Assembly (NCBI GenBank): GCA_021772055.1
Contig: JAETNR010000009.1
Coordinates: 1-64,000, forward strand
Length of the DNA stretch: 64,000 bases
Origin: Blautia sp.
GTDB taxonomy: Bacteria; Bacillota; Clostridia; Lachnospirales; Lachnospiraceae
Direction: 5' to 3'
Shown here one piece after another: positions 922-61,563 of this stretch. The position numbers were made by a program, and so were the translations under genes. The notes beneath the pieces are model-generated. The model was given only the letters and a program-made list of their open reading frames with translations. It was not told the DNA's origin and searched no databases. Every line of letters starts with the position of its first letter. Positions within the stretch are counted from its first letter, which is position 1.

Positions 922-1066
922 CGATTCAGCAGGCAGTAGCTGTGAAGGTACTGAACAGTTACGAAGAATAAAGAAAGCAGGATGAGCTGTTACCGGCCGG
1001 AGAAGTTCAAAAGGGCAGGGTGGCGGCTTTTTCTTAAGTATTTTCTGAGCTTAAGTGAGGTAGCAT

Positions 1067-2611
1067 ATGAAAAAGATCGTAACCTGCAGCCGTATGAAGG
1101 AATTGGATGGAGCAGCCATAAATGAGAAAGGGATTCCGTCCTGTGTGCTGATGGAGCGGGCAGCCCTGAGATTAGTGGAAGAACTGCAAAAAGGCTTTCC
1201 TCTGGAAAAACAGAAAGAACATGTTTTAGTAGTATGCGGAAGCGGAAATAACGGAGGAGATGGGATCGCAGCAGCAAGGCTCCTTCACCTCCAGGGAGTC
1301 CACGCAGCCTATTATCTGGCTATGGATGCGGACCATATGACAGAAGAAACAAAACGGCAGTACCGGATCGCAGAAAATTATCAGGTGCCCCGGGTGCATA
1401 ACCCGGAATGGAATGAATATACTACTATAGTAGATGCCATATTTGGCGTTGGTCTTTCCCGCACTGTGGAGGGTAGGGTGAAGGAAATCATCCGCTGCAT
1501 GAATCAGGCAGATGCCTGGAAAGTGGCTGTGGACATTCCATCAGGGGTGGACGGTGACACAGGAAGGGAACTTGGCATTGCCTTTCGGGCAGATCTGACG
1601 GTGACCTTTGCATACCGAAAGCAAGGCCTTTGCTATTATCCCGGAAGAATGTATGCGGGGCGGGTGGTAACCGCGGATATCGGCATCTACGGGGCAGAAC
1701 AGGCAGATGACCGCACCTGTTATCTGGAATGGGCGGATCTGGGACTGCTGCCGGAACGTGTTCCATATGGAAACAAGGGAACCTTCGGCAAGGTTCTTGT
1801 GGTGGCCGGATCGGAAGGCATGTGCGGAGCAGCATTTCTCTGCGCTGCGGCAGCATTGGCTGGCGGAGCCGGTATGGTCAGGATCCAGACTGTGGAGGAA
1901 AATCGCATTCCTCTTTTGACCCTGCTGCCGGAGGCCATGGTCACCTGTGAATTTACGGAAGAGTCTAACCGGAAATGCCTGGACTGGTGTGATGTTCTTG
2001 TCATCGGACCCGGCCTTGGCATCTCCGGGCAAAGCCGGGGAAAAGCGGAATGGTTTTTACGCAATGCCGCAAAGGAATGTAAACCGGTGATCCTGGATGC
2101 GGATGGGCTGAATCTTCTGGCAATGCACCCTGAATGGAACTCCTGTCTGTCAGATCGTGTAACTGTCACCCCGCATCTGGGGGAAATGGGCAGACTATCA
2201 GGAAAAAGCATTGGACAGATTCAGCACCGTATCGGGCAGACCGCCCGGGAGTTTGCTCGGGAAACAGGTGCCGTATGCGTATTAAAAGATGCCTGTACCG
2301 TAGTTGCGGATAAGGATGGCAGAACCTATCTCAATCTTTCCGGAAATCCGGGTATGGCAACTGCAGGAAGCGGCGATGTTCTTTCCGGAGTGCTTGCGGC
2401 CATACAGTGCATGTATCTGGGAGAAGAATGTCCGGATCATGGGATGAGGGCGGCGCTTGGCGTTTATCTTCATGGGAAAAGCGGTGACCTGGCAGCAGAA
2501 GAAATCGGGACAAGAGGAATGACCGCAAGGGATATCATCCGCATGATTCCAAGGGTACTTCGCCGGATATCAGATGAGAAAGAAAACACAGGAAAAGGAG
2601 AAAAATTATGA
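1067..2611 (+). CDS. nnr: Bifunctional NAD(P)H-hydrate epimerase / ADP-dependent dehydratase
   Basis: A 514-residue two-domain repair enzyme. The N-terminal YjeF_N half (about 1-215) epimerises damaged NAD(P)HX, with the GSGNNGGDG loop near residue 58. The C-terminal ribokinase-like half (about 225-505) dehydrates the S-form using ADP, with NKGTFGKVLVVAGS and the GSGDVLSGVLAAI anion-hole motif. The ATG follows a GTGAGGT element. The last codons overlap alr by 4 nt (ATGA), so the two are co-translated. A cofactor-repair enzyme next to rex is a sensible grouping but not proof of shared control. Confidence 0.95.
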   Translation: MKKIVTCSRMKELDGAAINEKGIPSCVLMERAALRLVEELQKGFPLEKQKEHVLVVCGSGNNGGDGIAAARLLHLQGVHAAYYLAMDADHMTEETKRQYRIAENYQVPRVHNPEWNEYTTIVDAIFGVGLSRTVEGRVKEIIRCMNQADAWKVAVDIPSGVDGDTGRELGIAFRADLTVTFAYRKQGLCYYPGRMYAGRVVTADIGIYGAEQADDRTCYLEWADLGLLPERVPYGNKGTFGKVLVVAGSEGMCGAAFLCAAAALAGGAGMVRIQTVEENRIPLLTLLPEAMVTCEFTEESNRKCLDWCDVLVIGPGLGISGQSRGKAEWFLRNAAKECKPVILDADGLNLLAMHPEWNSCLSDRVTVTPHLGEMGRLSGKSIGQIQHRIGQTAREFARETGAVCVLKDACTVVADKDGRTYLNLSGNPGMATAGSGDVLSGVLAAIQCMYLGEECPDHGMRAALGVYLHGKSGDLAAEEIGTRGMTARDIIRMIPRVLRRISDEKENTGKGEKL

Positions 2612-3774
2612 AAAGATACAGCAGGGCAAAAGCTGTGATATCTCTGGATGCCATTGCCCATAATTTGATGGAAATGAAAAAGAATCTGAAAGAAGGAACG
2701 CAGATGATCGCAGTGATCAAGGCGGACGGTTACGGACACGGGGCGGAGGCCATTGCTCATCTGGTGGAAGAATATGACTATATTTGGGGATTTGCCGTTG
2801 CCACGGCAGAGGAGGCCATACAGCTGAAATGCGCAGGAATCAAAAAGCCGATCCTGATCCTGGGAATCGTCTTTGAGGAGTCTTATAGAGAATTGATCCA
2901 GGCAGATGTCCGTATTACAGTATGTACCCTGGAAATGGCTGAGGGATTATCCGAAGAAGCTCTTCGTCAGGGAAAAACTGTACATATTCACCTGGCTCTG
3001 GATACCGGCATGTCCAGGATCGGGTTCGCAGATACAAAGGAAAGCATAGAGGAGATTCAAAAAATCGCGCTGCTTCCAGGCCTGGAGATCGAGGGAATGT
3101 TTACCCACTTTGCAAGGGCAGATGAGTATGACCGGACACCGGCCATGGTACAGCTGGAACGTTATCTGGTATTTGCGGATATGCTCAAAGCTGTGGGAGT
3201 GGAAATTTCCGTACTGCATTGCTCCAACAGTGCAGGAATCATCCGTGTGCCGGAAGCAAATCTGAATGTTGTCCGTGCCGGAATTGCGATTTATGGAATT
3301 TACCCATCCAATGAAGTAGAGCGGGATATCATACGTCTTGAGCCCGCCATGGAGCTTTTTAGCCATATTACTTATGTGAAGGAGGTTGGGCCCGGAGCGG
3401 CAGTCAGCTATGGCGGTACATTCGTGACTGATCGGGTGACCCGGATCGCAACCATACCGGTAGGATATGCGGACGGCTATCCGAGAGCATTGTCCAATAA
3501 AGGCCGGGTTCTGATTCACGGGAAATCTGCCAGGATCCTGGGGAGGATCTGTATGGATCAGTTCATGGTGGATGTTACGAATATCCCGGAAGCATCGGCA
3601 GGGGATGAAGTGACACTGATTGGCCGGGATGGGGATGAAATGATCAGTATGGAAGAATTAGGGGATCTTTCGGGCCGTTTTTCCTATGAATTTGCCTGTG
3701 AGGTCAACAAGCGGGTTCCAAGGGTTTATAAAAAAGACGGCAAAGAGTTTGCCGAGCTGACATTCTGGAAATAG
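2608..3774 (+). CDS. alr: Alanine racemase
   Basis: A 388-residue PLP enzyme that interconverts L- and D-alanine for peptidoglycan. The PLP lysine is K38 in AVIKADGYGHG. The second-domain catalytic tyrosine lies in AVSYGGTF, followed by TIPVGYADGYPR. Domain order is the usual TIM barrel then beta-domain, at normal length. Its start overlaps the nnr stop by 4 nt. In Bacillus alr is followed by the ndoAI-ndoA toxin-antitoxin pair; here only the toxin-like gene follows. Confidence 0.97.
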   Translation: MKRYSRAKAVISLDAIAHNLMEMKKNLKEGTQMIAVIKADGYGHGAEAIAHLVEEYDYIWGFAVATAEEAIQLKCAGIKKPILILGIVFEESYRELIQADVRITVCTLEMAEGLSEEALRQGKTVHIHLALDTGMSRIGFADTKESIEEIQKIALLPGLEIEGMFTHFARADEYDRTPAMVQLERYLVFADMLKAVGVEISVLHCSNSAGIIRVPEANLNVVRAGIAIYGIYPSNEVERDIIRLEPAMELFSHITYVKEVGPGAAVSYGGTFVTDRVTRIATIPVGYADGYPRALSNKGRVLIHGKSARILGRICMDQFMVDVTNIPEASAGDEVTLIGRDGDEMISMEELGDLSGRFSYEFACEVNKRVPRVYKKDGKEFAELTFWK

Positions 3775-3895
3775 AATAAGGGTACGCCTGTTATAAAAAA
3801 GCACTACACACAATGCATGTATACTCAAGAAAAATCTGGAAATACTAATTCTAGAACACGGCAGAAGCCGGAAACAGAATCGGAGTGTGAATTGT

Positions 3896-4243
3896 GTGGT
3901 AATTAAAAGAGGGGATATTTTTTATGCAGATTTAAGACCTGTGGTGGGAAGCGAACAGGGCGGAATCCGTCCGGTGCTGATCATTCAGAATGATATTGGG
4001 AATAAGCACAGTCCTACAGTGATCTGTGCTGCCATTACATCCAAAATGAATAAGGCAAAGCTGCCCACACATATTGAAATTGATGCCCAGGCCTACGGAA
4101 TAGAGAAGGATTCCGTTATTTTGCTGGAGCAGCTTCGGACTATTGATAAAAGGCGTTTAAAGGACAAAGTGTGCCATCTGGATCAGGCGATGCTGGATCG
4201 GGTGAATCATGCGTTGGAAATCAGCCTGGAATTGTCTTTTTAA
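3896..4243 (+). CDS. MazF/EndoA (PemK-like) endoribonuclease
   Basis: A 115-residue SH3-barrel protein closely resembling Bacillus Endo[31 protein letters not shown], the [10 protein letters not shown] loop with the conserved Thr, and [13 protein letters not shown]. Such enzymes cut single-stranded mRNA at short motifs. GTG at 3896 is preferred, since GGAG at 3882-3885 sits 10 nt upstream; the GTG at 3887 is only 1 nt from it. The 121 nt between alr and this start hold no open frame long enough for an EndoAI-type antitoxin. The toxin fold and conserved residues look intact. Confidence 0.9.
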
Positions 4244-7425: not shown

Positions 7426-7938
7426 ATGGGAAATATGTGTGAATGTCAGAACGGCGGAAACGCGGATTTCGCTGAGCTGGCTCCGGTACTGGAAAAATAT
7501 GCAAAGGTACCAGGAAGCCTGATCACCATTCTTCAGCAGACACAGGATATTTACGGTTATCTCTCTCTGGATGCGATCAACTACATTGCAGAGAGAACCG
7601 GAATTATGCCTGCGAAAATTTACGGTGTAGCTACATTCTATGCACAGTTCCGTTTACAGCCTATCGGCAAATACCTTATCATGCTTTGTAAAGGTACTGC
7701 CTGCCATGTAAATGGTTCTGACATGATCGAAGAAGCTGTTTGCGAACATCTTGGAATCAAAGACGGAGAGACTACAGAGGACGGATTATTTACGCTGAAC
7801 AATGTAGCCTGTCTCGGATGCTGTTCTCTGGCACCGGTAATGATGGTAAAGACCACAGACGGTGAAGAAACATTCGGGAACCTGACCAAATCTTCCGTTA
7901 AGAAGATTCTCGATGATTACAAAGCAAAGAATGCATAG
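7426..7938 (+). CDS. NuoE-like [2Fe-2S] subunit of a flavin oxidoreductase complex
   Basis: A 170-residue thioredoxin-fold subunit. The four [2Fe-2S] cysteines are visible in MLCKGTACHVNG (near 85-90) and NNVACLGCCSLAP (near 126-131). Such subunits (NuoE, HydC, HndA) relay electrons next to the FMN-bearing NuoF partner. It begins after AGGAGGG and is followed 11 nt later by the NuoF gene. The initial MCECQNGG stretch is a short extension with two extra cysteines. Product of the first gene of a three-gene operon. Confidence 0.93.
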   Translation: MGNMCECQNGGNADFAELAPVLEKYAKVPGSLITILQQTQDIYGYLSLDAINYIAERTGIMPAKIYGVATFYAQFRLQPIGKYLIMLCKGTACHVNGSDMIEEAVCEHLGIKDGETTEDGLFTLNNVACLGCCSLAPVMMVKTTDGEETFGNLTKSSVKKILDDYKAKNA

Positions 7939-7949
7939 GAGGTAAAAAT

Positions 7950-9704
7950 ATGAAAGTTGTAGTAGGGCAGGGAAGCTGTGGTATTGCTACCGGTGCGAAG
8001 AAAACCTCTAATGAATTCGAAAGAATCATTGCAGAAAAAAATCTGACAAACGTTGTGGTTGATAAGACCGGTTGTATCGGTACCTGTTATCTGGAGCCGA
8101 TCGTAGACGTTTACAATGACGAAGGCGCACTGGAAGCCAGATATGTAAAATGTACAACGGATAAAGTTTTAAGGATTGTTGAGGAGCATCTGATGGGCGG
8201 CAAGCCTGTAGAAGAATATGTGATTCCTGAGGAGGATGAGGCTTTCTTATCCCAGCAGCAGAGAATCGTTCTTCGCAACTGCGGACAGATCAATCCTGAG
8301 AAGATCGAAGAATATATTGCAGTAGGCGGATATGAGGCGGCCAGAAAAGCAATCACCTCCATGACTCCTGATGAAGTTATTGAGGAGATCAAGGTTTCCG
8401 GCCTTCGCGGACGCGGCGGCGCAGGATTCCCCACATGGTTTAAATGGAATGCTATCAAATCCAACAAAGGCGCACAGAAATACATGGTATGTAATGCTGA
8501 CGAGGGTGACCCGGGTGCATTCATGGACCGTTCCGTTTTGGAAGGTGACCCCCACTCTCTGTTGGAAGGTATGATCATCGGCGGTTTCGCAGCAGGTGCT
8601 ACCGAGGGTATCATTTACTGCCGTGCCGAGTATCCTCTTGCTATCGCACGTCTGGAGATCGCCATGGCGCAGGCCAGAGAAAAAGGCTATCTGGGCCAGA
8701 ACCTGTTTGGAACAGGCTTTAACTTTGATATCCGTATTAAGGCAGGTGCAGGTGCGTTCGTATGCGGTGAGGAAACCGCACTGATCGCTTCTCTGGAAGG
8801 CGAGCGCGGTATGCCTCGTCTGAAACCTCCGTTCCCGGCAGCTAAGGGATACTGGAAGCTTCCAACCAATATCAATAATGTAGAAACCTATGCGAACGTT
8901 GCATGGATCATGGCTAACGGCGGACAGGCCTTTGCGGACAGAGGCGCAGAGAAGTCCAAAGGCTCCAAGGTATTTGCTCTTGCAGGTAAGATCAAGAAGG
9001 GCGGCCTTGTAGAAGTACCGATGGGTATGACTCTCCGTGAGGTTATCTACAATATCGGTGGCGGAATTAAAAATGATAAGGAATTCAAGGCTGTTCAGAT
9101 GGGCGGTCCATCCGGCGGATGTATTCCGGCACAGCTCATTGATACTCCTGTTACATACGAAGATATTAACAAGACAGGTGCTATCGTTGGTTCAGGCGGT
9201 ATGATCGTTATGGACGAGGATACCTGTATGGTAGATATGGCCCGTTTCTTCCTGGATTTCACCAGAAAAGAGTCCTGCGGCAAATGTAACTACTGCCGTA
9301 TCGGTACCAAGAGGATGCTGGAGATCCTTGAGCGGATCACCAAAGGTGAAGGTAAAGACGGTGATATTGAGCTTCTGGAAGAACTTGCAGGCAAGATCAA
9401 AGACGGTGCAATGTGCGGTCTTGGCCAGACAGCTCCAAACCCTGTACTTACCACCATCCGTTATTTCCGCAACGAGTATGAAGACCATATTTACAATCAT
9501 AAATGTACAGCAAAATCCTGTAAGGCTCTGATTCATTATGAGATCACAGACGACTGCAAGGGCTGCGGCAAGTGTAAGAGAAATTGTCCGGTGAATGCGA
9601 TCAGCGGTGATAAGAAACAGGTTCATACCATTGATCCGAATGTATGTATCAAGTGCGGCAAGTGCGAAGAAAACTGTGCATTTGGTGCAGTGAAGAGAGT
9701 TTAA
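7950..9704 (+). CDS. NuoF-like NADH/FMN subunit with extra ferredoxin domain
   Basis: A 584-residue subunit like HydB/HndC. An N-terminal thioredoxin-like [2Fe-2S] domain (CGIATGA, TGCIGTCYLEP) precedes the NuoF core with the NADH/FMN loops GLRGRGGAGFPT and CNADEGDPGAFMDRS, then GAGAFVCGEETALIASLEG. The N3 [4Fe-4S] motif is SCGKCNYCRIG with a later Cys in MCGLG. The C-terminus adds two [4Fe-4S] sites (CKGCGKCKRNC, CIKCGKCEENC). It takes hydride from NADH at FMN, the likely bifurcation site in this class. AGGAGG precedes the ATG. Codon use suggests high expression. Confidence 0.95.
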   Translation: MKVVVGQGSCGIATGAKKTSNEFERIIAEKNLTNVVVDKTGCIGTCYLEPIVDVYNDEGALEARYVKCTTDKVLRIVEEHLMGGKPVEEYVIPEEDEAFLSQQQRIVLRNCGQINPEKIEEYIAVGGYEAARKAITSMTPDEVIEEIKVSGLRGRGGAGFPTWFKWNAIKSNKGAQKYMVCNADEGDPGAFMDRSVLEGDPHSLLEGMIIGGFAAGATEGIIYCRAEYPLAIARLEIAMAQAREKGYLGQNLFGTGFNFDIRIKAGAGAFVCGEETALIASLEGERGMPRLKPPFPAAKGYWKLPTNINNVETYANVAWIMANGGQAFADRGAEKSKGSKVFALAGKIKKGGLVEVPMGMTLREVIYNIGGGIKNDKEFKAVQMGGPSGGCIPAQLIDTPVTYEDINKTGAIVGSGGMIVMDEDTCMVDMARFFLDFTRKESCGKCNYCRIGTKRMLEILERITKGEGKDGDIELLEELAGKIKDGAMCGLGQTAPNPVLTTIRYFRNEYEDHIYNHKCTAKSCKALIHYEITDDCKGCGKCKRNCPVNAISGDKKQVHTIDPNVCIKCGKCEENCAFGAVKRV

Positions 9705-9719
9705 TAGGAGGTGCAGACT

Positions 9720-12700
9720 GTGAATAAATTCAGATTAAATATCGACGGCAAAGAGGTCTACGGACTTCCGGGACAGACAATTCTTGAAGTTTGCAGAGAG
9801 AATGATATTTTCATTCCTACTCTTTGTTATGATGAGAGAACAGAAATTTACGGCGCATGCGGTCTGTGTATGGTAGAGTGGGAAGGAAGTCCCAAGCTTT
9901 GGAAAGCCTGTGCAACAGAGATTGCTCCAAATATGGTGATCCGTACCAATACCCCGCGTGTCATTGAATCCAGGAAGACAAACCTGGAACTTCTTCTTTC
10001 CAACCACAAGGGCGACTGCCGTCCTCCGTGTATGCTGGCATGTCCAGCAGGTACTGACTGCCAGGGCTATGTAGGCCTGATTGCCAACGGCCAGTATGAA
10101 GAAGCAATCAAACTGATCAGAGAAAATATCCCGCTTCCGGGCGCAATCGGACGTGTCTGCCCGCATCCATGTGAAAAAGCATGCCGCCGCGGCCTTGTGG
10201 ATGAGCCGATTGCAATTGCAAACCTTAAGAGATTTGCAGCAGATACCGATGAATTCGGGGAAGATCCTTTTGTACCGGAGTGCGAGCCGGATACAGGAAA
10301 GAACGTTGCCATCATCGGCGGTGGCCCTTATGGTATTTCCATGGCATATTTCCTTCGCCAGTTAGGACATGACGTTACGATTTATGAGGCAATGCCGAAG
10401 CTTGGTGGTATGCTCCGCTACGGTATTCCGGAATATCGTCTTCCGAAGGAAGTCCTTGACGAAGAAATCGCTGTTCTGGAAAAAATGGGCGTAACCATGG
10501 TAACCAACACCAAGATCGGTGAGGATATTTCCTTCGAAGCAATTAAGAGAGACTTTGATGCCGTATGTATCGGTATCGGTGCATGGGTATCCACAGGCGT
10601 TCGCTGCAAGGGCGAGGACGCAGAGGGTGTGATCGGCGGTATTGACTTCCTGCGTAAGGTTGTCCGCAATGAGAAGATCGACCTTGGGGAAAATGTAGCT
10701 ATCGTAGGCGGCGGTAATACTGCAATGGATGCATGCCGTACAGCAGTACGTCTCGGCGCAAAGAAGGTTTACAACATCTACAGAAGAACCAAAGACGAAA
10801 TGCCTGCAGATATGATTGAGATTGAAGAGGCAGAAGAGGAAGGCGTAATCTTCCTGAACCTGACCAATCCTCTGGAGATCATTTCTGATGAAAGCGGCCA
10901 CTGCCGTCAGATGGTACTTCAGGTAATGAAGCTTGGTGAGCCGGATGCATCCGGACGTCGTGCTCCTGTTCCTGTAGAGGGTGAGACCAAGACCATTGAT
11001 GTGGATACTGTAATCCTGGCAATCGGTCAGAAAGTAAACGCAGCCGGAATCGAAGGCGTAGAGCTTACCAGAAAGGGCGGCATTGTTTACGACAAAGATA
11101 CTTATATGACTGCGATCCCAGGCGTATTTGCCGGCGGTGACTGCGGTAATGATAAGATTTCCATTGCTGTTGAGTCTATTGGAGACGCAAAGAAGAGCTG
11201 TGATATCGTAGATGCTTATCTGCGGGGCGAAGAAATCAAATATGAGCCAAACTATTATGTGACCAAGAAGGACGTAACTCCGGCTACTTTTGAAGACCGT
11301 GAGAGAATGTGCCGTCCGACTATGGAGCAGCTCAACGCAGAAGAAAGAAAAGACAACTTTACAGAAGTAGTATTCGGATATGACGAGGAGCAGGCTCTTG
11401 AAGAGGCTCACCGCTGTCTGGAATGCGGATGTAAGGACTATTTCGAGTGTAAGCTGATTTCCTATGCAAATATGTATGGCGTAGAGCCGGATCGTTTTGC
11501 AGGAGACATTAATGAAGTGGATTATAAGGATGAGCATCTGTTCATCTTGAGAGACCCCAATAAGTGTATTCTCTGCGGACTTTGTGTTCGTGCCTGTGAC
11601 GAGGTTATGGGCGTAGGTGCACTGGGTCTGGTGAACCGTGGATTTGATACGGTTGTAAAACCGGCTCTGGAACAGCCGTTATCCGAAACAGGATGTATTT
11701 CCTGCGGCCAATGTGTAAGTGTCTGTCCGACAGGCGCTCTGCAGGAAAGACTGTCCCTGGAGAAATCCGTTCCTCTTGCAACAGAAGTTACCGATACCAC
11801 CTGTGCACACTGCTCCGTTGGCTGCTCCATTCATCTGGAAACCTACGGCGATATGCTGGTGAAATCTGTTCCGGATAAAGAGGGTGCCGTAAACAAAGGC
11901 CTTCTTTGCGGACGGGGTAAATTCGGTTTCGACTGTGCAGTAATGGAAGACAAGCTTCTTGACCCAATGGCAAGAAAGAATGGCGAGCTGACAGAAGTAG
12001 ATTATCATGAGGCATTTGTTCTGGTTGCTAAGAAAGCAGAAGCACTTGCTGCAAAATACGGCAAGGATGCAGTTGCTGTAGCGATTTCTGACAGATACAC
12101 CAATGAAGAAGCTTATGTGATCAAGAAATTTGCTGATGAGATCGGTGCTAAGACACTTTGCTTTAACAACAGAGAGAGCGGACTTGAAAAGGTTCTGGGT
12201 GTAAATGCTTCTCCAAATACCATTGATGAGCTGCTTAGTGCAGAAGTGATCCTCTGCGCAGGCTTCATTGCAAAAGAGAACCAGGTAATCCGTCTGAAAC
12301 TGAAGCAGGCTGCTAAGAATGGTGCAAAAGTAATCCTGGTAAATCCGGAAGGATATGAGCAGGATCATATGAGCTTTGCATATAAGACTATTACCACAAG
12401 CAACAGTCTTGCATTCTTCAAGGGCGTTGCAAAGGCTCTGGTTGATATGGGCAAGGGTGCAGGAATGGAAGGCTATGATGCATTCAAGGCTTCCGTGGAA
12501 GGCGCTTCTGTCTGCGATGAAGTAAAAGCGGTTGCAGAAGCTTATGCTAATGCTAAGAAAGCAATGATCGTATTCCAGCAGAACGTGGTTACTACAGAGG
12601 CTGCTGCACTCCTTTCCGATATTGCGGTTGTATCCGGACACATTGGCAAAGCACGTGACGGTATCCTTCAGCTGAAGGCTAAGAATAACAGCCAGGGTCT

Positions 12701-55342: not shown

Positions 55343-55397
55343 CAGCTAACCTTTGCAGCAGACAGTGTAAAAGAAGGTTAGCTGTTTTTTTGTTTTT
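55343..55397 (+). terminator. Terminator of the cell-shape operon
   Basis: CAGCTAACCTT (from 55343) pairs with AAGGTTAGCTG (ending 55384) with a 20-nt loop and a long T-run (55385-55397). Confidence 0.9.
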
Positions 55398-55477: not shown

Positions 55478-58400
55478 ATGAAGGAGAAAATGACATTTCG
55501 CCCCATCCCGGGACTTACAAGAGAAGACGAGGAACAAATGCTTGCAGAGATTATCCGGGCAGCGCAGAGTAATCTTGATAAGACGGAAGGATATATTCGA
55601 AGTCTGTCAGAGGAACTGCACGATCTGATGGAGACCTATGGGCCGAAGGATAAAGAAGCCCTGGCTCTTCTGCATAATACGCAGTCACAGCTTCGGGAAA
55701 ATAAGCGTGATCTGCTGCGATGCCAAAATGCAAGAAAAAAGCCGTATTTTGGCAGAATTGATTTTAGGGATTCCAGGCTTCCTCGGGATGAGTCATATTA
55801 TGTGGGCAGAGTCGGTATTTCCAAAAGCGGAGCAGAACCTGTGGTAATCGACTGGAGAGCTCCTGTGGCATCCGTTTATTACGAAAATGCCATAGGGCCA
55901 TGCAGCTACACGGTGAAGAGCGAGGGACGCTTTGACATTGAATTAAAGCGCAAGCGGACTTATGAGATTGCAGAGGACAGGCTGAAGGACTTTTTTGATT
56001 CCGATGTGGTAGCCAATGATGAACTTCTGACAAAATACCTGGCAAAAAGCAAGAAGGCCGTTTTAGGTGAGATCATCGCTACCATCCAGAAGGAGCAAAA
56101 TGCAATTATCCGTAAATCCCCCAAAACAAACATGATCGTGCAGGGAGTGGCCGGTTCCGGCAAGACCACTGTAGCGATGCATCGTATCTCTTATATTCTG
56201 TATAATTACGGGGAGGAATTTCGTCCGGAGGATTTTTATATTATTGGAAGTAACCGGATCCTATTGAATTATATTACAGGAGTGTTACCGGAACTGGATG
56301 TGTATGGCGTATCCCAGATGACAATGGAGCAGTTGTTTGTCCGCCTTCTTTATGAGGACTGGAACCCCCAAATTCATAAAATCCGTTCCCTTGAGAAGCA
56401 GGATTCCCAGTCCTGCATGAAGGGAAGTTATGAATGGTTTCATGACCTGGAAGAGTTTTGCGCGGAATATGAGTATGAGAAGATTCCAAAAGGGGAAATC
56501 TGCATGGAGAAAAACGGTGCTCTTCTCATGGACTCCAAAACCATTACGGATTATCTGAAGGAATATCCGGGAATGTCCATGCAGAGTAAGATCCATATGC
56601 TGAATGAGATCCTTCTTTCCAGACTGGAAAATGAAATCACAGGGAAATATGTATCCTACACAAAAGCAGAACAGAAAGAACTGAAACGGATGTACCGCTG
56701 GCACTTCGGAAAGGACGAATGGAAGGGAGACATTTTTCAGGTTTATCAGGAATTCCTGCTGTTCCAGGAACAGAAGGGCAAGTGCATTTCTGTCACAGAG
56801 AATGCATATGATGTATACGATCTGGCAGCCCTTGCCTATCTCTACAAGCGGATCAAAGAGACGGACGGCATCCGGGAAGCAAGCCATGTGATCATTGATG
56901 AAGCACAGGATTTCGGCATGATGGCATATGGAGCACTTTCCTACTGTCTTCGGGGATGTACTTATACCATTATGGGAGATGTGTCCCAGAATATTCATTA
57001 TGGTTATGGCCTGAATGATTGGGAAGAACTGAAAAGTCTGATTTTAACAGGAACATACGATGGCTTTGGCGTTTTAAAGAAAAGCTACCGGAATACTGTG
57101 GAAATTTCAGAATTTGCGACAGAAATCCTCCGGCACGGAAATTTTCCGGTTTATCCTGTGGAGCCTATTATCCGTCATGGCAATGAGGTTGAGGTGAGAG
57201 AATGTACAGATGAAAGCGATATGCTTCTTCAATCTGTAAAGATTATCAAAAACTGGCAGAAGGAAGGACATGAGACGATTGCAGTGATCTGTTGTGATGA
57301 GGCGGAAGCATCCATGGTAAGCAGACGGCTTGGCGAAGTGATCCGAGTGGAGGACAGCTGCCTGGAGACCGCAGAATTCGGAAGCGGCGTTATGGTGCTT
57401 CCTGTGGAATATACAAAAGGGTTGGAATTTGATGCTGTTCTTCTATACCATCCTTCTTTGGAAAGCTACCCGGCAGAAGACCGTTATGTGAAGCTTCTCT
57501 ATGTAGCCGCCACCCGCGCTTTGCATGAACTTTCGGTTGTTCATATGGGAGACCTGACAGATCTGATCGGAAAAACGGTATCCATGGAAAAGCGTATGCA
57601 GTCACTGGATGGGCAGGGAGAGAGGGGGCTTTCACAATACACAAAAGAGGAAAGAAACGCAAAAGAACAGCATCTTTTGGATGTACAGACGGGGGATCTT
57701 GAGCGTGAGCTTCGCAATCGCTTTGGCCCGAAACCCATTGTAGTACAGCAGAATAAAAGCAGTGTCCGGGAATCCCCTTTCCAGAAAGGGGCAAAGAAGA
57801 ATGGGGAATTGCCCGCTTCTGCCAATAACCTTCTGATAAAAAAGAAGCAGGTGCGGGAAGCTCCTGGAAAGTCTTTGCATCCTGTTCTTATCAATCCTTC
57901 TCCCTATCCCTTTGGCGCGTGCCCCATTACTGCGCTGCTGCGGCCAAAAGGATTCAGCCGTATGGACCATTCCATCCGTATTGTGCGAAAGATGAAACGA
58001 TACATTGATTTTACAAGCAGATATGGAACCTTGCGTCTCACACCTCTTGAGGAGGGGATGATCCGTGTGCAGTTCCAAAAAGGAGGGCTTGCAGAGTTTG
58101 CACCCGGCCATTGGAACTATCTTCCCCAGCATCCTGTTTCCTGGGCTGCAAAAGAAGGGAAAAATCTGGTGGAGGTTACAGCCGGAAAACTCCTTGTAAG
58201 AGCAGATAAAAAAACAGGTGCCATCAGTTTCTGGAATCAGGAAGGAAAGCGGCTGCTTGCAGAGAAAGCAGCTATTCCCAGGCAGATCGAAAGCGGTGCT
58301 GTCCTGGAATCCTGGGTGCACTTTGACTGGGGAAGAAATGAAAAGCTGTATGCAAAAGGCGTCCTTGCAGACGATCTGGAACAGATGAACCAGAAGGCAA

Positions 58401-58615
58401 GGTACATCAGCTTTGGCAGGAAACCGCTTCGTATGCCGTTTCTGTTTTCTGAATTTGGTTACGGTATCGGTGCTGCAGCAGAACAGACTGTAATGTGCTG
58501 TGCGATTCCTATGTACGGAACTTATCTATATACAGACGGAATGAAGCAGATTGATTATTATTTTCTTTATGGAGGAGATTATAGGACAACTTTGGAATTA
58601 TACAAGAAGTTATAA
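55478..58615 (+). CDS. HelD-like UvrD-family ATPase fused to a GH31 N-terminal-like domain
   Basis: A 1045-residue protein. Residues 1-160 form the coiled arm seen in HelD. The helicase core has Walker A GVAGSGKTT (near 223-231), D474-E-A-Q-D, VEYTKGLEFDAVLLYHP and LYVAATRALHELSVVH. HelD proteins release stalled RNA polymerase. From about residue 800 the frame continues through a linker into roughly 220 residues (RYGTLRLTPLEEGMIRVQF; ending DYYFLYGGDYRTTLELYKKL) resembling the mutarotase-like N-terminal sandwich of GH31 glycosidases. It stops where the catalytic barrel would begin. No frameshift is visible. GGGAGAAAGG precedes the ATG. Confidence 0.83.
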   Translation: MKEKMTFRPIPGLTREDEEQMLAEIIRAAQSNLDKTEGYIRSLSEELHDLMETYGPKDKEALALLHNTQSQLRENKRDLLRCQNARKKPYFGRIDFRDSRLPRDESYYVGRVGISKSGAEPVVIDWRAPVASVYYENAIGPCSYTVKSEGRFDIELKRKRTYEIAEDRLKDFFDSDVVANDELLTKYLAKSKKAVLGEIIATIQKEQNAIIRKSPKTNMIVQGVAGSGKTTVAMHRISYILYNYGEEFRPEDFYIIGSNRILLNYITGVLPELDVYGVSQMTMEQLFVRLLYEDWNPQIHKIRSLEKQDSQSCMKGSYEWFHDLEEFCAEYEYEKIPKGEICMEKNGALLMDSKTITDYLKEYPGMSMQSKIHMLNEILLSRLENEITGKYVSYTKAEQKELKRMYRWHFGKDEWKGDIFQVYQEFLLFQEQKGKCISVTENAYDVYDLAALAYLYKRIKETDGIREASHVIIDEAQDFGMMAYGALSYCLRGCTYTIMGDVSQNIHYGYGLNDWEELKSLILTGTYDGFGVLKKSYRNTVEISEFATEILRHGNFPVYPVEPIIRHGNEVEVRECTDESDMLLQSVKIIKNWQKEGHETIAVICCDEAEASMVSRRLGEVIRVEDSCLETAEFGSGVMVLPVEYTKGLEFDAVLLYHPSLESYPAEDRYVKLLYVAATRALHELSVVHMGDLTDLIGKTVSMEKRMQSLDGQGERGLSQYTKEERNAKEQHLLDVQTGDLERELRNRFGPKPIVVQQNKSSVRESPFQKGAKKNGELPASANNLLIKKKQVREAPGKSLHPVLINPSPYPFGACPITALLRPKGFSRMDHSIRIVRKMKRYIDFTSRYGTLRLTPLEEGMIRVQFQKGGLAEFAPGHWNYLPQHPVSWAAKEGKNLVEVTAGKLLVRADKKTGAISFWNQEGKRLLAEKAAIPRQIESGAVLESWVHFDWGRNEKLYAKGVLADDLEQMNQKARYISFGRKPLRMPFLFSEFGYGIGAAAEQTVMCCAIPMYGTYLYTDGMKQIDYYFLYGGDYRTTLELYKKL

Positions 58616-58698: not shown

Positions 58699-61563
58699 AT
58701 GAATAGATTTCTGGAATTTTTTGACAATATGAATGAACTGGTATATGTTTTGGATATTGCAGATCATAGTCTGGTCTATGTAAATAAAAAGGGCCTGGAG
58801 ATTCTTGGACTTTCTTCTATGGAAGAGGCTGCTGGAAGGATGTGCTACGAGCTTCTGCAGAATTCTTCTTTACCCTGTACGACTTGTAATCCGGAGGAAT
58901 TAAAACCAGGATACTTTAAGGAATACCGGTATTATAATCCTGTTCTTGACAGACATCTGATGATGAAGGAAACGGTTCTGGAAGAAAACGGAAGGAAATA
59001 CCGGCTGGAGCTGGCCATTGATGTCAGCGGACAGGTGCAGAGGGAGACCATGGAAGGAAGGTACCAGAACCTGGAGGCGATCATTAACGAAGGGCTTAGG
59101 GTGGCCCTTCAGGAAAAGAAGCCCTCCGGTACTTTGGCTGTCCTTCTGGAATATCTGGGTAATGCCCTGAATGGTGAACGTACCTACATATTTGAAAAAA
59201 ATGCAAAGGGTGGAGATGACAACACATACGAGTGGACTGCAAAGGGAATTATGCCGGAAAGAGAAAATCTTCAGGATCTTCCTTCAGAGGTATGTGAAAG
59301 CTGGTACCGCAGTTTCCGTGCCGGCAGGCATATTATGATTGAAGATCTGGAAGATATCCGTACAACAAATCCGATGCAGTATGAGGTGCTTAAGAATCAG
59401 AAAATCCATTCCCTTGTGGTGGTGCCCCTTTATGATAATGACAAAGTGATCGGCTTTTTTGGTGTGGATAATCCTCCGGGAAAGGCTATGGAGTATGCGT
59501 CCGATATGCTTCAGATCACGGCACATTTTATTGTTTCCAGTTTAAAGCAGCGCAATCTGTTAAAAAGGCTGGAGGAGAGAAGCTACGATATTTTTAAATC
59601 CCTGAATGTGGATTATGTAGGAATTTTTGAAATTGATTTTAATACGGATAAGTGTGAAGTATACAAAAAAATAGAACATTCCAGGGGAACGATGAATCCC
59701 AATTTGGAATTCTGCAGGAGCTATCAAAGTGCAATAGAAAACTATATTTCGCTGTATGTATCGGAATGGGACCAGGAAGCTCTGCGTACTGTGACAAAGA
59801 AAGATTATGTGCTTGAACAGCTTAAAACAAAAAAGAAATTTTATATGAGATATCATGTAAAAGAAAATCCACAAAACGTAGAGAATTTTGAAATTCACTT
59901 TGCAAGCATGGGAAATGATCTCAATAAGGTGATTCTGGCATTTCGGAATGTGGACTCCGTAGTAAAGGAAGAAGAGCAATATAAACTGGAGACCAGACGA
60001 AATGTGGAAGATATTCTGGAGGGTTCCAGAACAGGCATGTGGACTATAGAACTTGAGGAAAGCTGCAGGCCCCGGATGTATGCGGACAGAACCATGCGGA
60101 TGCTTCTTGGCGTGGAAGAGAATATCGGACCGGAGGAATGTTATCAGCATTGGCTTTCCAATATCGATCCGGAGTATACGAATCTAGTGCAGGAAACGGT
60201 AGAAGAAATTTTGAAAAGAGGCCGTTCTGAAGCCGTTTATCCCTGGAACCATCCGCTGCTTGGGAAAATTTATGTACGTTGCGGAGGCGTGCCTGATGGA
60301 CGCTTCTCGAAAAAGGGCGCTTGCCTGAAAGGTTATCATCAGGATATTACGGAGACCATGGTTACGAGACAAAAGCAGGAGAAAGCTATTCTGGAGGCAC
60401 TTGAAAAGGCACAGAGGGCGAGTTCCGCAAAAAGCGAATTCCTTTCCCATATGTCACATGATATCCGTACGCCTATTAATGGGATTTTGGGCATGCTTTC
60501 CATCAGCGAAAAAAATCCCCGGGACATGGAACGGCAGAGGGAATGCAGAGCAAAAATCCGGATATCTGCAGAGCATCTGCTGTCTCTTATTAACGATGTC
60601 CTTGAAATAAGCAAATTGGAGAGCGGAGAGCTGTCTCTGATGGAAGAATCCTTTGATCTTTATGACCTTTTAGACAATTGCATGACCATAATAAGTCCAA
60701 GGGCCGTAGAAATGGGAATTACACTGGAAATGAAGCCGCTGGACATCCGGCATAGAAAATTAGTGGGAAGCCCTTTGCATATACGGCAGATCCTGATCAA
60801 CCTTATAGGGAATGCCATTAAATATAACCGGAAAAATGGCAGCGTATGGGTTTATGCAGAAGAATTATCCTTTGAAAATGACATTGCACAATACAGGTTT
60901 GTGGTGGAAGATACGGGAATCGGAATAGGGGAGGAGTTCCAGAAGTATATTTTTGAGCCTTTTACCCAGGAGCACCATGATGCAAGGACAGAGTACCACG
61001 GAACAGGTCTCGGAATGTCCATTACCAGGAAGCTGGTGGATCAGATGGGTGGAACTATCGGTCTGGAAAGCCAGATCGGCAAAGGAAGTACTTTTACCGT
61101 ATGCATTCCGATCCGGATGGATATGGATACGAAGGAGGAGCCTGCTATTATGGAGGAATCTGCTGATATTTCAGGAATGCAGGTTCTTCTGGTGGATGAC
61201 AATGAGATTAACTGTGAAATCGTACAGTACATGCTGGAGGACGCAGGAGCGTCCGTGGTAATTGCAGGAAATGGCTTGGAGGCTGTGGAAGCCTTTGAGA
61301 AATCTTCCTATGGAGCGTTTGACTGCATTTTAATGGATCTGATGATGCCTGTAATGGACGGTATGGAAGCTTCCAGAAAAATTCGCAGTCTGGAGCGGAG
61401 CGATGCAAAGTCGATCCCTATCATCGCCCTTTCTGCGAATGCCTTTGAGGAGGATGCAAGAGCAGCAAAAGAGGCAGGGATGAACGAGCATCTTGCAAAG
61501 CCGGTGGATATTGAGAAAATGATAAAGACAATTTCTTATTTGGTGAAGGCTGCGGCGGTATGA
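58699..61563 (+). CDS. Hybrid sensor histidine kinase (PAS-GAF-PAS-HK-REC)
   Basis: A 954-residue cytoplasmic sensor with no transmembrane segment. An N-terminal PAS domain (1-115) includes SSLPCTTCN, then GAF (about 125-285), one or two further PAS-like domains (about 290-570), HisKA with H587 in SHMSHDIRTP, HATPase (NLIGNAIKYN; DTGIGIG; GTGLGMSI), and a receiver with D880 in LMDLMMPVMDG and the Lys in LAKPVD. No separate response regulator or Hpt gene is adjacent. AAGGAGA precedes the ATG. Confidence 0.92.
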   Translation: MNRFLEFFDNMNELVYVLDIADHSLVYVNKKGLEILGLSSMEEAAGRMCYELLQNSSLPCTTCNPEELKPGYFKEYRYYNPVLDRHLMMKETVLEENGRKYRLELAIDVSGQVQRETMEGRYQNLEAIINEGLRVALQEKKPSGTLAVLLEYLGNALNGERTYIFEKNAKGGDDNTYEWTAKGIMPERENLQDLPSEVCESWYRSFRAGRHIMIEDLEDIRTTNPMQYEVLKNQKIHSLVVVPLYDNDKVIGFFGVDNPPGKAMEYASDMLQITAHFIVSSLKQRNLLKRLEERSYDIFKSLNVDYVGIFEIDFNTDKCEVYKKIEHSRGTMNPNLEFCRSYQSAIENYISLYVSEWDQEALRTVTKKDYVLEQLKTKKKFYMRYHVKENPQNVENFEIHFASMGNDLNKVILAFRNVDSVVKEEEQYKLETRRNVEDILEGSRTGMWTIELEESCRPRMYADRTMRMLLGVEENIGPEECYQHWLSNIDPEYTNLVQETVEEILKRGRSEAVYPWNHPLLGKIYVRCGGVPDGRFSKKGACLKGYHQDITETMVTRQKQEKAILEALEKAQRASSAKSEFLSHMSHDIRTPINGILGMLSISEKNPRDMERQRECRAKIRISAEHLLSLINDVLEISKLESGELSLMEESFDLYDLLDNCMTIISPRAVEMGITLEMKPLDIRHRKLVGSPLHIRQILINLIGNAIKYNRKNGSVWVYAEELSFENDIAQYRFVVEDTGIGIGEEFQKYIFEPFTQEHHDARTEYHGTGLGMSITRKLVDQMGGTIGLESQIGKGSTFTVCIPIRMDMDTKEEPAIMEESADISGMQVLLVDDNEINCEIVQYMLEDAGASVVIAGNGLEAVEAFEKSSYGAFDCILMDLMMPVMDGMEASRKIRSLERSDAKSIPIIALSANAFEEDARAAKEAGMNEHLAKPVDIEKMIKTISYLVKAAAV

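Follow-up and report, generated by a model that had tools for sequence, protein, structure and literature searches.

A HelD-type motor fused to a GH31 N-terminal sandwich domain in Blautia sp. and its relatives

Organization of the fusion gene

The analyzed stretch of DNA, 64,000 nucleotides of contig JAETNR010000009.1 of Blautia sp. (hereinafter, the window), contained at positions 55478–58615 of the + strand a single open reading frame (ORF) of 1045 codons with no interruption. The product began with a complete HelD-type motor, continued with a linker of variable sequence, and closed with a GH31 N-terminal β-sandwich, an architecture designated here as HelD–GH31N. The initial annotation had proposed that one frame joins a full HelD-like ATPase to a GH31-like tail, and the frame, the motor, and the tail were all confirmed. 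The elements of the gene and the evidence for them were as follows:

55478..58615, + strand: whole HelD–GH31N fusion gene, 1045 amino acids (aa); full-length relatives in other genomes.
55520..55738, + strand: N-terminal helical hairpin, residues 15–87, the presumed secondary-channel arm, with its tip at residues ~52–60 (E52, D58, E60); full-length model, acidic tip in 36/36 fusions.
55850..55864, + strand: DWRAP, residues 125–129, HelD Trp-cage motif; alignment to 6wvk, motif given as DWR[A/S]P in PMC8655204.
56144..56167, + strand: Walker A GVAGSGKT, residues 223–230; motif.
56345..56797, + strand: helical insertion, about residues 290–440, at the HelD clamp-arm position; gap in the 6wvk alignment, helical in the model.
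56888..56914, + strand: Walker B VIIDEAQDF, residues 471–479; motif.
57065..57562, + strand: 2A (head) motor domain, about residues 530–695, limits approximate; alignment to 6wvk_H, 6vsx, and 3dmn.
57563..57895, + strand: variable linker, residues 696–806; low identity, varying length, low model confidence.
57896..57967, + strand: tail-specific lead-in SPYxFGxCPDxxxLRPKG, residues 807–830; conserved in tails, gap in 10/12 GH31 domains.
57968..58612, + strand: GH31 N-terminal β-sandwich, residues 831–1045, with no barrel behind it; profile, fold, model, and pairwise match.

The HelD motor

Residues ~1–695 corresponded to HelD, and the phmmer match to B. subtilis HelD (6wvk_H, E-value = 1 × 10−67) fell into two stretches, residues 45–287 and 440–693, the latter aligned to positions 512–758. 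For residues 288–439 no match to 6wvk was reported; this part was mostly helical in the full-length model and lies where the clamp arm of HelD is placed in PMC7749167. The head region was also matched by 6vsx (residues 537–696) and 3dmn (residues 535–699). Because the NCBIfam model HelD_BACSU scored 350.8 bits (E-value = 1.2 × 10−104), below its equivalog cut-off of 419 bits, the motor belongs, by sequence, to a HelD-like subfamily distinct from the B. subtilis equivalog.

Walker A and Walker B were present in all 36 intact fusions, and three further ORFs without them were cut or split tail pieces. The Trp-cage motif, described in PMC8655204 as DWR[A/S]P, was found as DWR-x-P in 36/36 fusions, with A or S as the variable residue in 35 and T in one (L028). 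The hairpin was predicted as two helices (residues 15–53 and 59–87 in the full-length model), and its tip carried from three to five acidic residues in each of the 36 fusions. PMC7749167 and PMC8655204 assign roles in RNA polymerase (RNAP) recycling to the arms, to the acidic tip, and to the Trp-cage; the latter source also divides HelD variants into large (~740–850 aa) and small (~680–720 aa) ones that differ in their arms, and its main text contains none of the terms C-terminal, tail, extension, fusion, or glycos. The best fold match of the full-length model was HelD of the RNAP complex 6wvk (E-value = 1.5 × 10−39), with the GH31 entry 5zn6 at rank 33 (230 columns). The fused protein thus shares with class I HelD (B. 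subtilis, 6wvk/6zca) the superfamily 1 (SF1)-like Walker A/B motor, DWRAP, the acidic-tipped hairpin, and a helical insertion at the clamp arm, but differs from it in the ~110-residue linker, the GH31 N-terminal domain, and the score under the equivalog cut-off.

A defence helicase was considered and rejected: PADLOC returned 20 matches of a general helicase level, the best to GajB (E-value = 2.9 × 10−12) over residues 469–623 only, partner models not having been searched for.

Identity and fold of the C-terminal tail

When the window's sequence was compared with libraries on its own, the evidence for a GH31 tail was weak: the match to Pfam Gal_mutarotas_2 (PF13802) had an E-value of 0.029 and 15.1 bits, under the cut-off of 27, and the match to the α-xylosidase 7kmp had an E-value of 0.0039. 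Gal_mutarotas_2 was matched at E-value ≤ 0.1 by 20 of the 36 tails (best 4.2 × 10−5), and residues 845–1045 aligned to residues 24–230 of the intact GH31 relative L087 with an E-value of 1.8 × 10−14, a value obtained in a small search of the 241 window ORFs and the ORFs of two loci. A profile of the 36 tails recovered three α-xylosidases from the PDB, namely, 7kmp (E-value = 2.9 × 10−14), 5jou (3.4 × 10−13), and 2xvg (3.1 × 10−8). AlphaFold2 applied to seven tails gave a mean predicted local distance difference test score (pLDDT) of 71 and a predicted template modelling score (pTM) of 0.78, with 60–65 for the other four models. In the Foldseek comparison with the PDB, the best match was 5zn6 (E-value = 6.5 × 10−10), and the best 50 of the 637 matches (E-value up to 10) were all GH31, some of these entries being ones that we take to belong to GH31 from their enzyme family. 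Both the profile search and the structure prediction, which had been proposed as checks on the tail, therefore returned a GH31 sandwich.

The tail match ended just ahead of the lead into the GH31 barrel (LTGKA..LP.WA.G), in agreement with the earlier claim that the protein stops exactly at the boundary of the N-terminal domain. Two GH31 queries (E-value threshold 1 × 10−3) found no match other than the fusion gene among the 241 window ORFs of at least 60 aa; because of this, the catalytic barrel is judged, from these ORFs, to be absent from both the fusion protein and the window, as had been claimed for the nearby frames.

In the fold of the N-terminal sandwich and in sequence profile, the tail resembles xyloglucan-type α-xylosidases of GH31 (Xac1773 7kmp, BoGH31A 5jou, CjXyl31A 2xvg). 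It differs from them in having no barrel and hence no catalytic residues, and in the loss, in most tails, of the YGLGQ..EEG..N.RG residues; the tails also lack a long insert that is present in 7kmp and 5jou and falls between tail positions 193 and 215.

Linker and full-length model

The linker, counted from residue 693 to 811, ranged from 68 to 183 aa in the 36 fusions, was rich in K, E, A, R, and P, and had an identity of 9–65% to that of the window in 35 relatives. The pLDDT was below 50 at residues 710–729 and 741–802, with a helix drawn at 728–749; thus, the linker evolves fast and is predicted to be largely disordered. The full-length model, built from 36 sequences, had a mean pLDDT of 78 and a pTM of 0.58, and both the motor and the tail were mostly confident. 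Taken with the low pLDDT of most of the linker, these values fit a tethered arrangement. The lead-in at residues 811–820 was below 50 in the tail model of seven sequences; in the full-length model, which was built from more sequences, its block pLDDT was 85.

Distribution of the fusion

The fusion was detected in six of 64 genomes of the window's genus, with seven copies in all. The identity to the window's gene was 84% in G056, 79% in G038, and 74% and 70% for the two copies of G039; in G006 and G004, the motor and the tail were matched separately in the same frame. Each of the six carriers has, at another locus, a second HelD of more canonical type, that of G004 with an internal stop.

In the family sample (397 genomes, at least 334 genera; tail profile threshold 1 × 10−12), the tail profile matched 34 genomes. 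From the number of its genera, this family is plausibly Lachnospiraceae, as named in the initial annotation. One of them, G224, had a GH31 enzyme only, and the other 33 were not plain GH31. The tail lay in a single open frame of about 1000–1150 aa with HelD motifs, including Walker A and B, in 30 of these 33. The fusion of G111 was cut by contig ends, and that of G069 was cut by a contig end with its HelD part out of view. In G212, the fusion was split near the linker into overlapping frames, L074:5579–7828 (749 aa) and 7716–8687 (323 aa), by either a frame change or a sequencing error. Since homologues in the same frame occur in many genomes, a frameshift or misjoin near residue 800, for which the initial annotation had allowed, is ruled out.

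In the class sample, nine of 391 genomes matched the tail profile at 1 × 10−15. The window was the only fusion among them, the other eight being GH31 enzymes (L116, L117–L122, and the contig-cut L132), one of which came from the window's family. The fusion seems, from these matches, to be limited to one family within the 391-genome class sample at that threshold.

A mobile element was rejected as the carrier, with plasmid records covering 80% of the query numbering 0 of 91 matching. A phage origin was also rejected: in record MT836747.1, named "Bacteriophage sp.", the two neighbour genes resemble those of L084 (by eye), and the record is probably a mislabelled bacterial scaffold. This unverified record (L163), from a human faecal sample, contains at 982–4215 a complete HelD–GH31N fusion of 1077 aa.

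Origin of the fused copies

The HelD tree was constructed from 55 sequences, in which the tail-less genes were represented by 14 of 35 such genes together with L029 and L030; the other 21 were called tail-less only from the length of the frame. The trees did not include L163, nor L079 and L082, which contig ends cut short. The 37 fused sequences and one tail-less sequence, L030, formed one clade (support 100/99), and the next branches outside it were the tail-less L102–L105, followed by L106. The HelD gene L030:7021–9333 of G060 ends soon after the motor, with no tail nearby in any of the six frames, and, being inside the fused clade, is an apparent secondary loss. One genome, G420, has one fused and one tail-less copy. 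Remains of a tail behind the tail-less HelD genes were looked for in six frames at 16 loci and not found (best E-value 2.9), and the idea was rejected for these loci.

The tail tree included 36 tails and the 16 GH31 N-terminal domains accepted by the tail profile; GH31 loci of lower similarity were not part of it. All tails lay on one side of a branch with a support of 100/100, and the nearest GH31 sequences were L116–L118, from another family of the class. This tree replaced an earlier one with 19 of the 36 tails, constructed without L116–L119 and other GH31 loci in which no boundary motif was detectable; the earlier tree had placed the tails beside L089 and L087. Taken together, the trees indicate that one fusion and one later loss of the tail would be the simplest account.

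The closest PDB entries to L087 were 7kmp (E-value = 2.9 × 10−138) and 5jou (1.3 × 10−135), both α-xylosidases, 5jou belonging to a xyloglucan locus; because of this proximity, the donor was probably a GH31 enzyme of the xyloglucan α-xylosidase type. By profile score, the GH31 gene of the family closest to the tails is L089:4384–6807 of G224. It has a stop inside, and G224 also carries L104, one of the tail-less HelD genes of the sister clade.

Conserved and lost residues of the tail

The 36 tails were compared with 12 GH31 N-terminal domains, and the motif YGLGQ..EEG..N.RG was taken from that alignment and not from a curated definition. The core residues common to both groups included G850, P856, R863, G914, E929, W951, E955, Y976, G994–Y995, and D1026–Y1027. 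The motif residues, present in most of the 12 GH31 domains, were lost in most of the 36 tails, as were Q979 and N981; these lost residues presumably face the barrel. The early-branching L081 still has LYGLG, which fits decay after capture. Residues F812, G813, P816, W946, A959, A974, S978, and C1008 were conserved in the tails (in up to 97% of the 36) and rare in GH31; F812, G813, and P816, located in the lead-in that is gapped in 10 of the 12 GH31 domains, were kept in 89–94% of the tails.

The ratio of nonsynonymous to synonymous substitution rates (dN/dS) was estimated in eight pairs, in which many dS values were near or past saturation. It was 0.07–0.16 for the tail in seven of the eight; for the linker (0.13–0.23) and the motor (0.04–0.15), seven pairs gave values and one was not computable. 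The tail is under purifying selection.

Neighbouring genes

The neighbourhood survey took in 39 loci, some of them cut by contig ends and some close kin, and covered 344 ORFs lying no more than 6 kb away, with names assigned by eye. No shared sugar-gene neighbourhood around the fusions was found at these loci, a GH13-like gene being present at three of the 39.

In the window's genome (C123), a GH31 gene (L022:6965–9502) lies 59 bases upstream of a canonical HelD gene (9562–11694) on the same strand. The same order, GH31 directly upstream of canonical HelD, was found in at least six of the 64 genus genomes (the window's, G056, G038, G015, G016, and G017). Close relatives of this GH31 gene were present in 34 of 299 family genomes (38 matches), and a HelD gene was near them at two of 30 loci (about 1.5 kb on each side), both in the window's genus. 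A general functional link between HelD and GH31 was rejected: the pair involves the canonical HelD, at 2/30 family loci and in one genus. The birth of the fusion from such a neighbouring GH31 was rejected as well, the gene order being reversed and the GH31 genes scoring highest with the tail profile being L117, L116, and L118 (another family), then L089, L119, and L087.

Upstream of the fusion gene lies a gene resembling D-Ala-D-Ala carboxypeptidases (by eye). In the gap between the two, at 55344–55391, a 10-base inverted repeat (AGCTAACCTT/AAGGTTAGCT) precedes a run of T residues and is terminator-like by eye; the consensus scan did not list it. Downstream, 83 bases after the fusion gene and on the same strand, an ORF at 58699–61563 encodes a 954-aa look-alike of PAS/GAF hybrid sensor kinases (by eye); the same arrangement is present in G056.

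Interpretation of the fused protein

By computation, the fused HelD has intact motor motifs, an acidic-tipped hairpin, a disordered-looking linker, a folded tail under selection, and a single origin. Because many related species kept the joint gene, it is very likely that the borrowed tail does a new job in this protein. In the explanation proposed here, an accessory HelD-type RNAP recycling motor would have gained the GH31 N-terminal sandwich once, in some ancestor inside the family, without the catalytic barrel. The sandwich, joined to the HelD head (2A) domain through a tether of about 110 residues, would serve as a non-catalytic docking or regulatory module; its former barrel-packing face may have been remodelled for a new partner, most likely RNAP or a partner in the stalled complex, and the tail would recruit or position the fused HelD copy, as the linker and Tudor domain do in PcrA. 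The initial annotation had offered co-option of the domain as a structural part as its second possibility, and this possibility is supported, as are the domain assignment and the boundary. A recycling motor with a co-opted, non-catalytic docking or regulatory sandwich remodelled to bind RNAP or a partner is the reading to which we give an about even chance.

PcrA carries an RNAP-associated Tudor domain on a linker (PMC8318588). The fused HelD resembles PcrA/UvrD in the sequence of SF1 motor, disordered linker, and small β-rich C-terminal domain, but the fold and origin of its tail are unrelated to those of the Tudor domain, and RNAP binding by the tail would be an analogy.

Several observations weigh against the docking or regulatory role. 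RNAP binding by the fused HelD is inferred from homology only, and the score lies below the NCBIfam HelD cut-off. Given the pTM of 0.58, the tail has no confident placement on the motor. The tail has changed more quickly than the motor (identity to the window of 23–81% and 53–88%, respectively, across 35 relatives), it was lost once (L030), and in one of the eight pairs its dN/dS was 1.16, with nearly no synonymous change there. The neighbours were uninformative: the widest groups, at eight of the 39 loci each, were generic look-alikes of signalling proteins and ABC transporters, and the next group was found at five.

Among the other explanations, the sandwich might act within the molecule, packing on the HelD head or arms and stabilizing or restraining their motion with no outside partner. 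The long co-inheritance of tail and motor and the gain of confidence of the lead-in in the full-length model agree with this, whereas a poorly conserved linker of 68–183 residues and the low pTM are not suggestive of a fixed contact, and the close tail-less sister HelD proteins manage without a tail; this explanation is unlikely, although it deserves consideration. That the tail is a neutral passenger, a folded but functionless relic of a chance fusion, is improbable: its faster evolution, its single loss, and the one pair with dN/dS above 1 would be expected of a relic, but purifying selection in seven of the eight pairs, retention in one frame in 30/397 family genomes, and tail-specific residues kept in up to 97% of the tails speak for a constrained domain.

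A sensor, with a sandwich that takes up a sugar or a sugar phosphate as ligand and thereby gates HelD by nutrient state, would suit the fold, the descent from a sugar-active enzyme, and the GH13-like gene at three of 39 loci. The catalytic pocket of GH31 enzymes lies mainly in the barrel, however, which is absent here; the YGLGQ-loop residues conserved in GH31 are lost, no conserved sugar-gene neighbourhood was found at the 39 loci, and the GH31–HelD pairs belong to the canonical HelD of a single genus, so that a sensor of this kind is improbable. The proposal of the initial annotation that a carbohydrate- or ligand-sensing module may control transcription recycling is unsupported, given the eroded GH31 residues, the missing sugar-gene neighbourhood, and the missing barrel. 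A stronger form is regarded as likewise improbable: a separate HelD lineage with a C-terminal extension, in which the acquired glycosidase domain would respond to a signal derived from carbohydrates and turn the removal of stalled RNAP on or off, so that sugar supply is coupled to transcription recycling in the family. An artefact (frameshift, misassembly, or chance similarity), to which the single-sequence Pfam match under the cut-off might have pointed, is refuted by the same-frame relatives in many genomes and by the profile, fold, and pairwise GH31 matches, and retains almost no probability.

Significance of the fusion

No description of the HelD–GH31N architecture was found in open-access titles and the opening parts of abstracts, a search that did not extend to subscription journals or domain-architecture databases. 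Many bacteria carry more than one copy of HelD, the reason for which is described as open in PMC8655204. The fused HelD, with its clear domain origin, single birth, and tail-less sisters, makes both the differences between paralogues and their possible recruitment by dedicated domains directly testable. It also represents a clear case of a transcription-machinery protein in which an accessory domain of a glycosidase is re-used outside catalysis.

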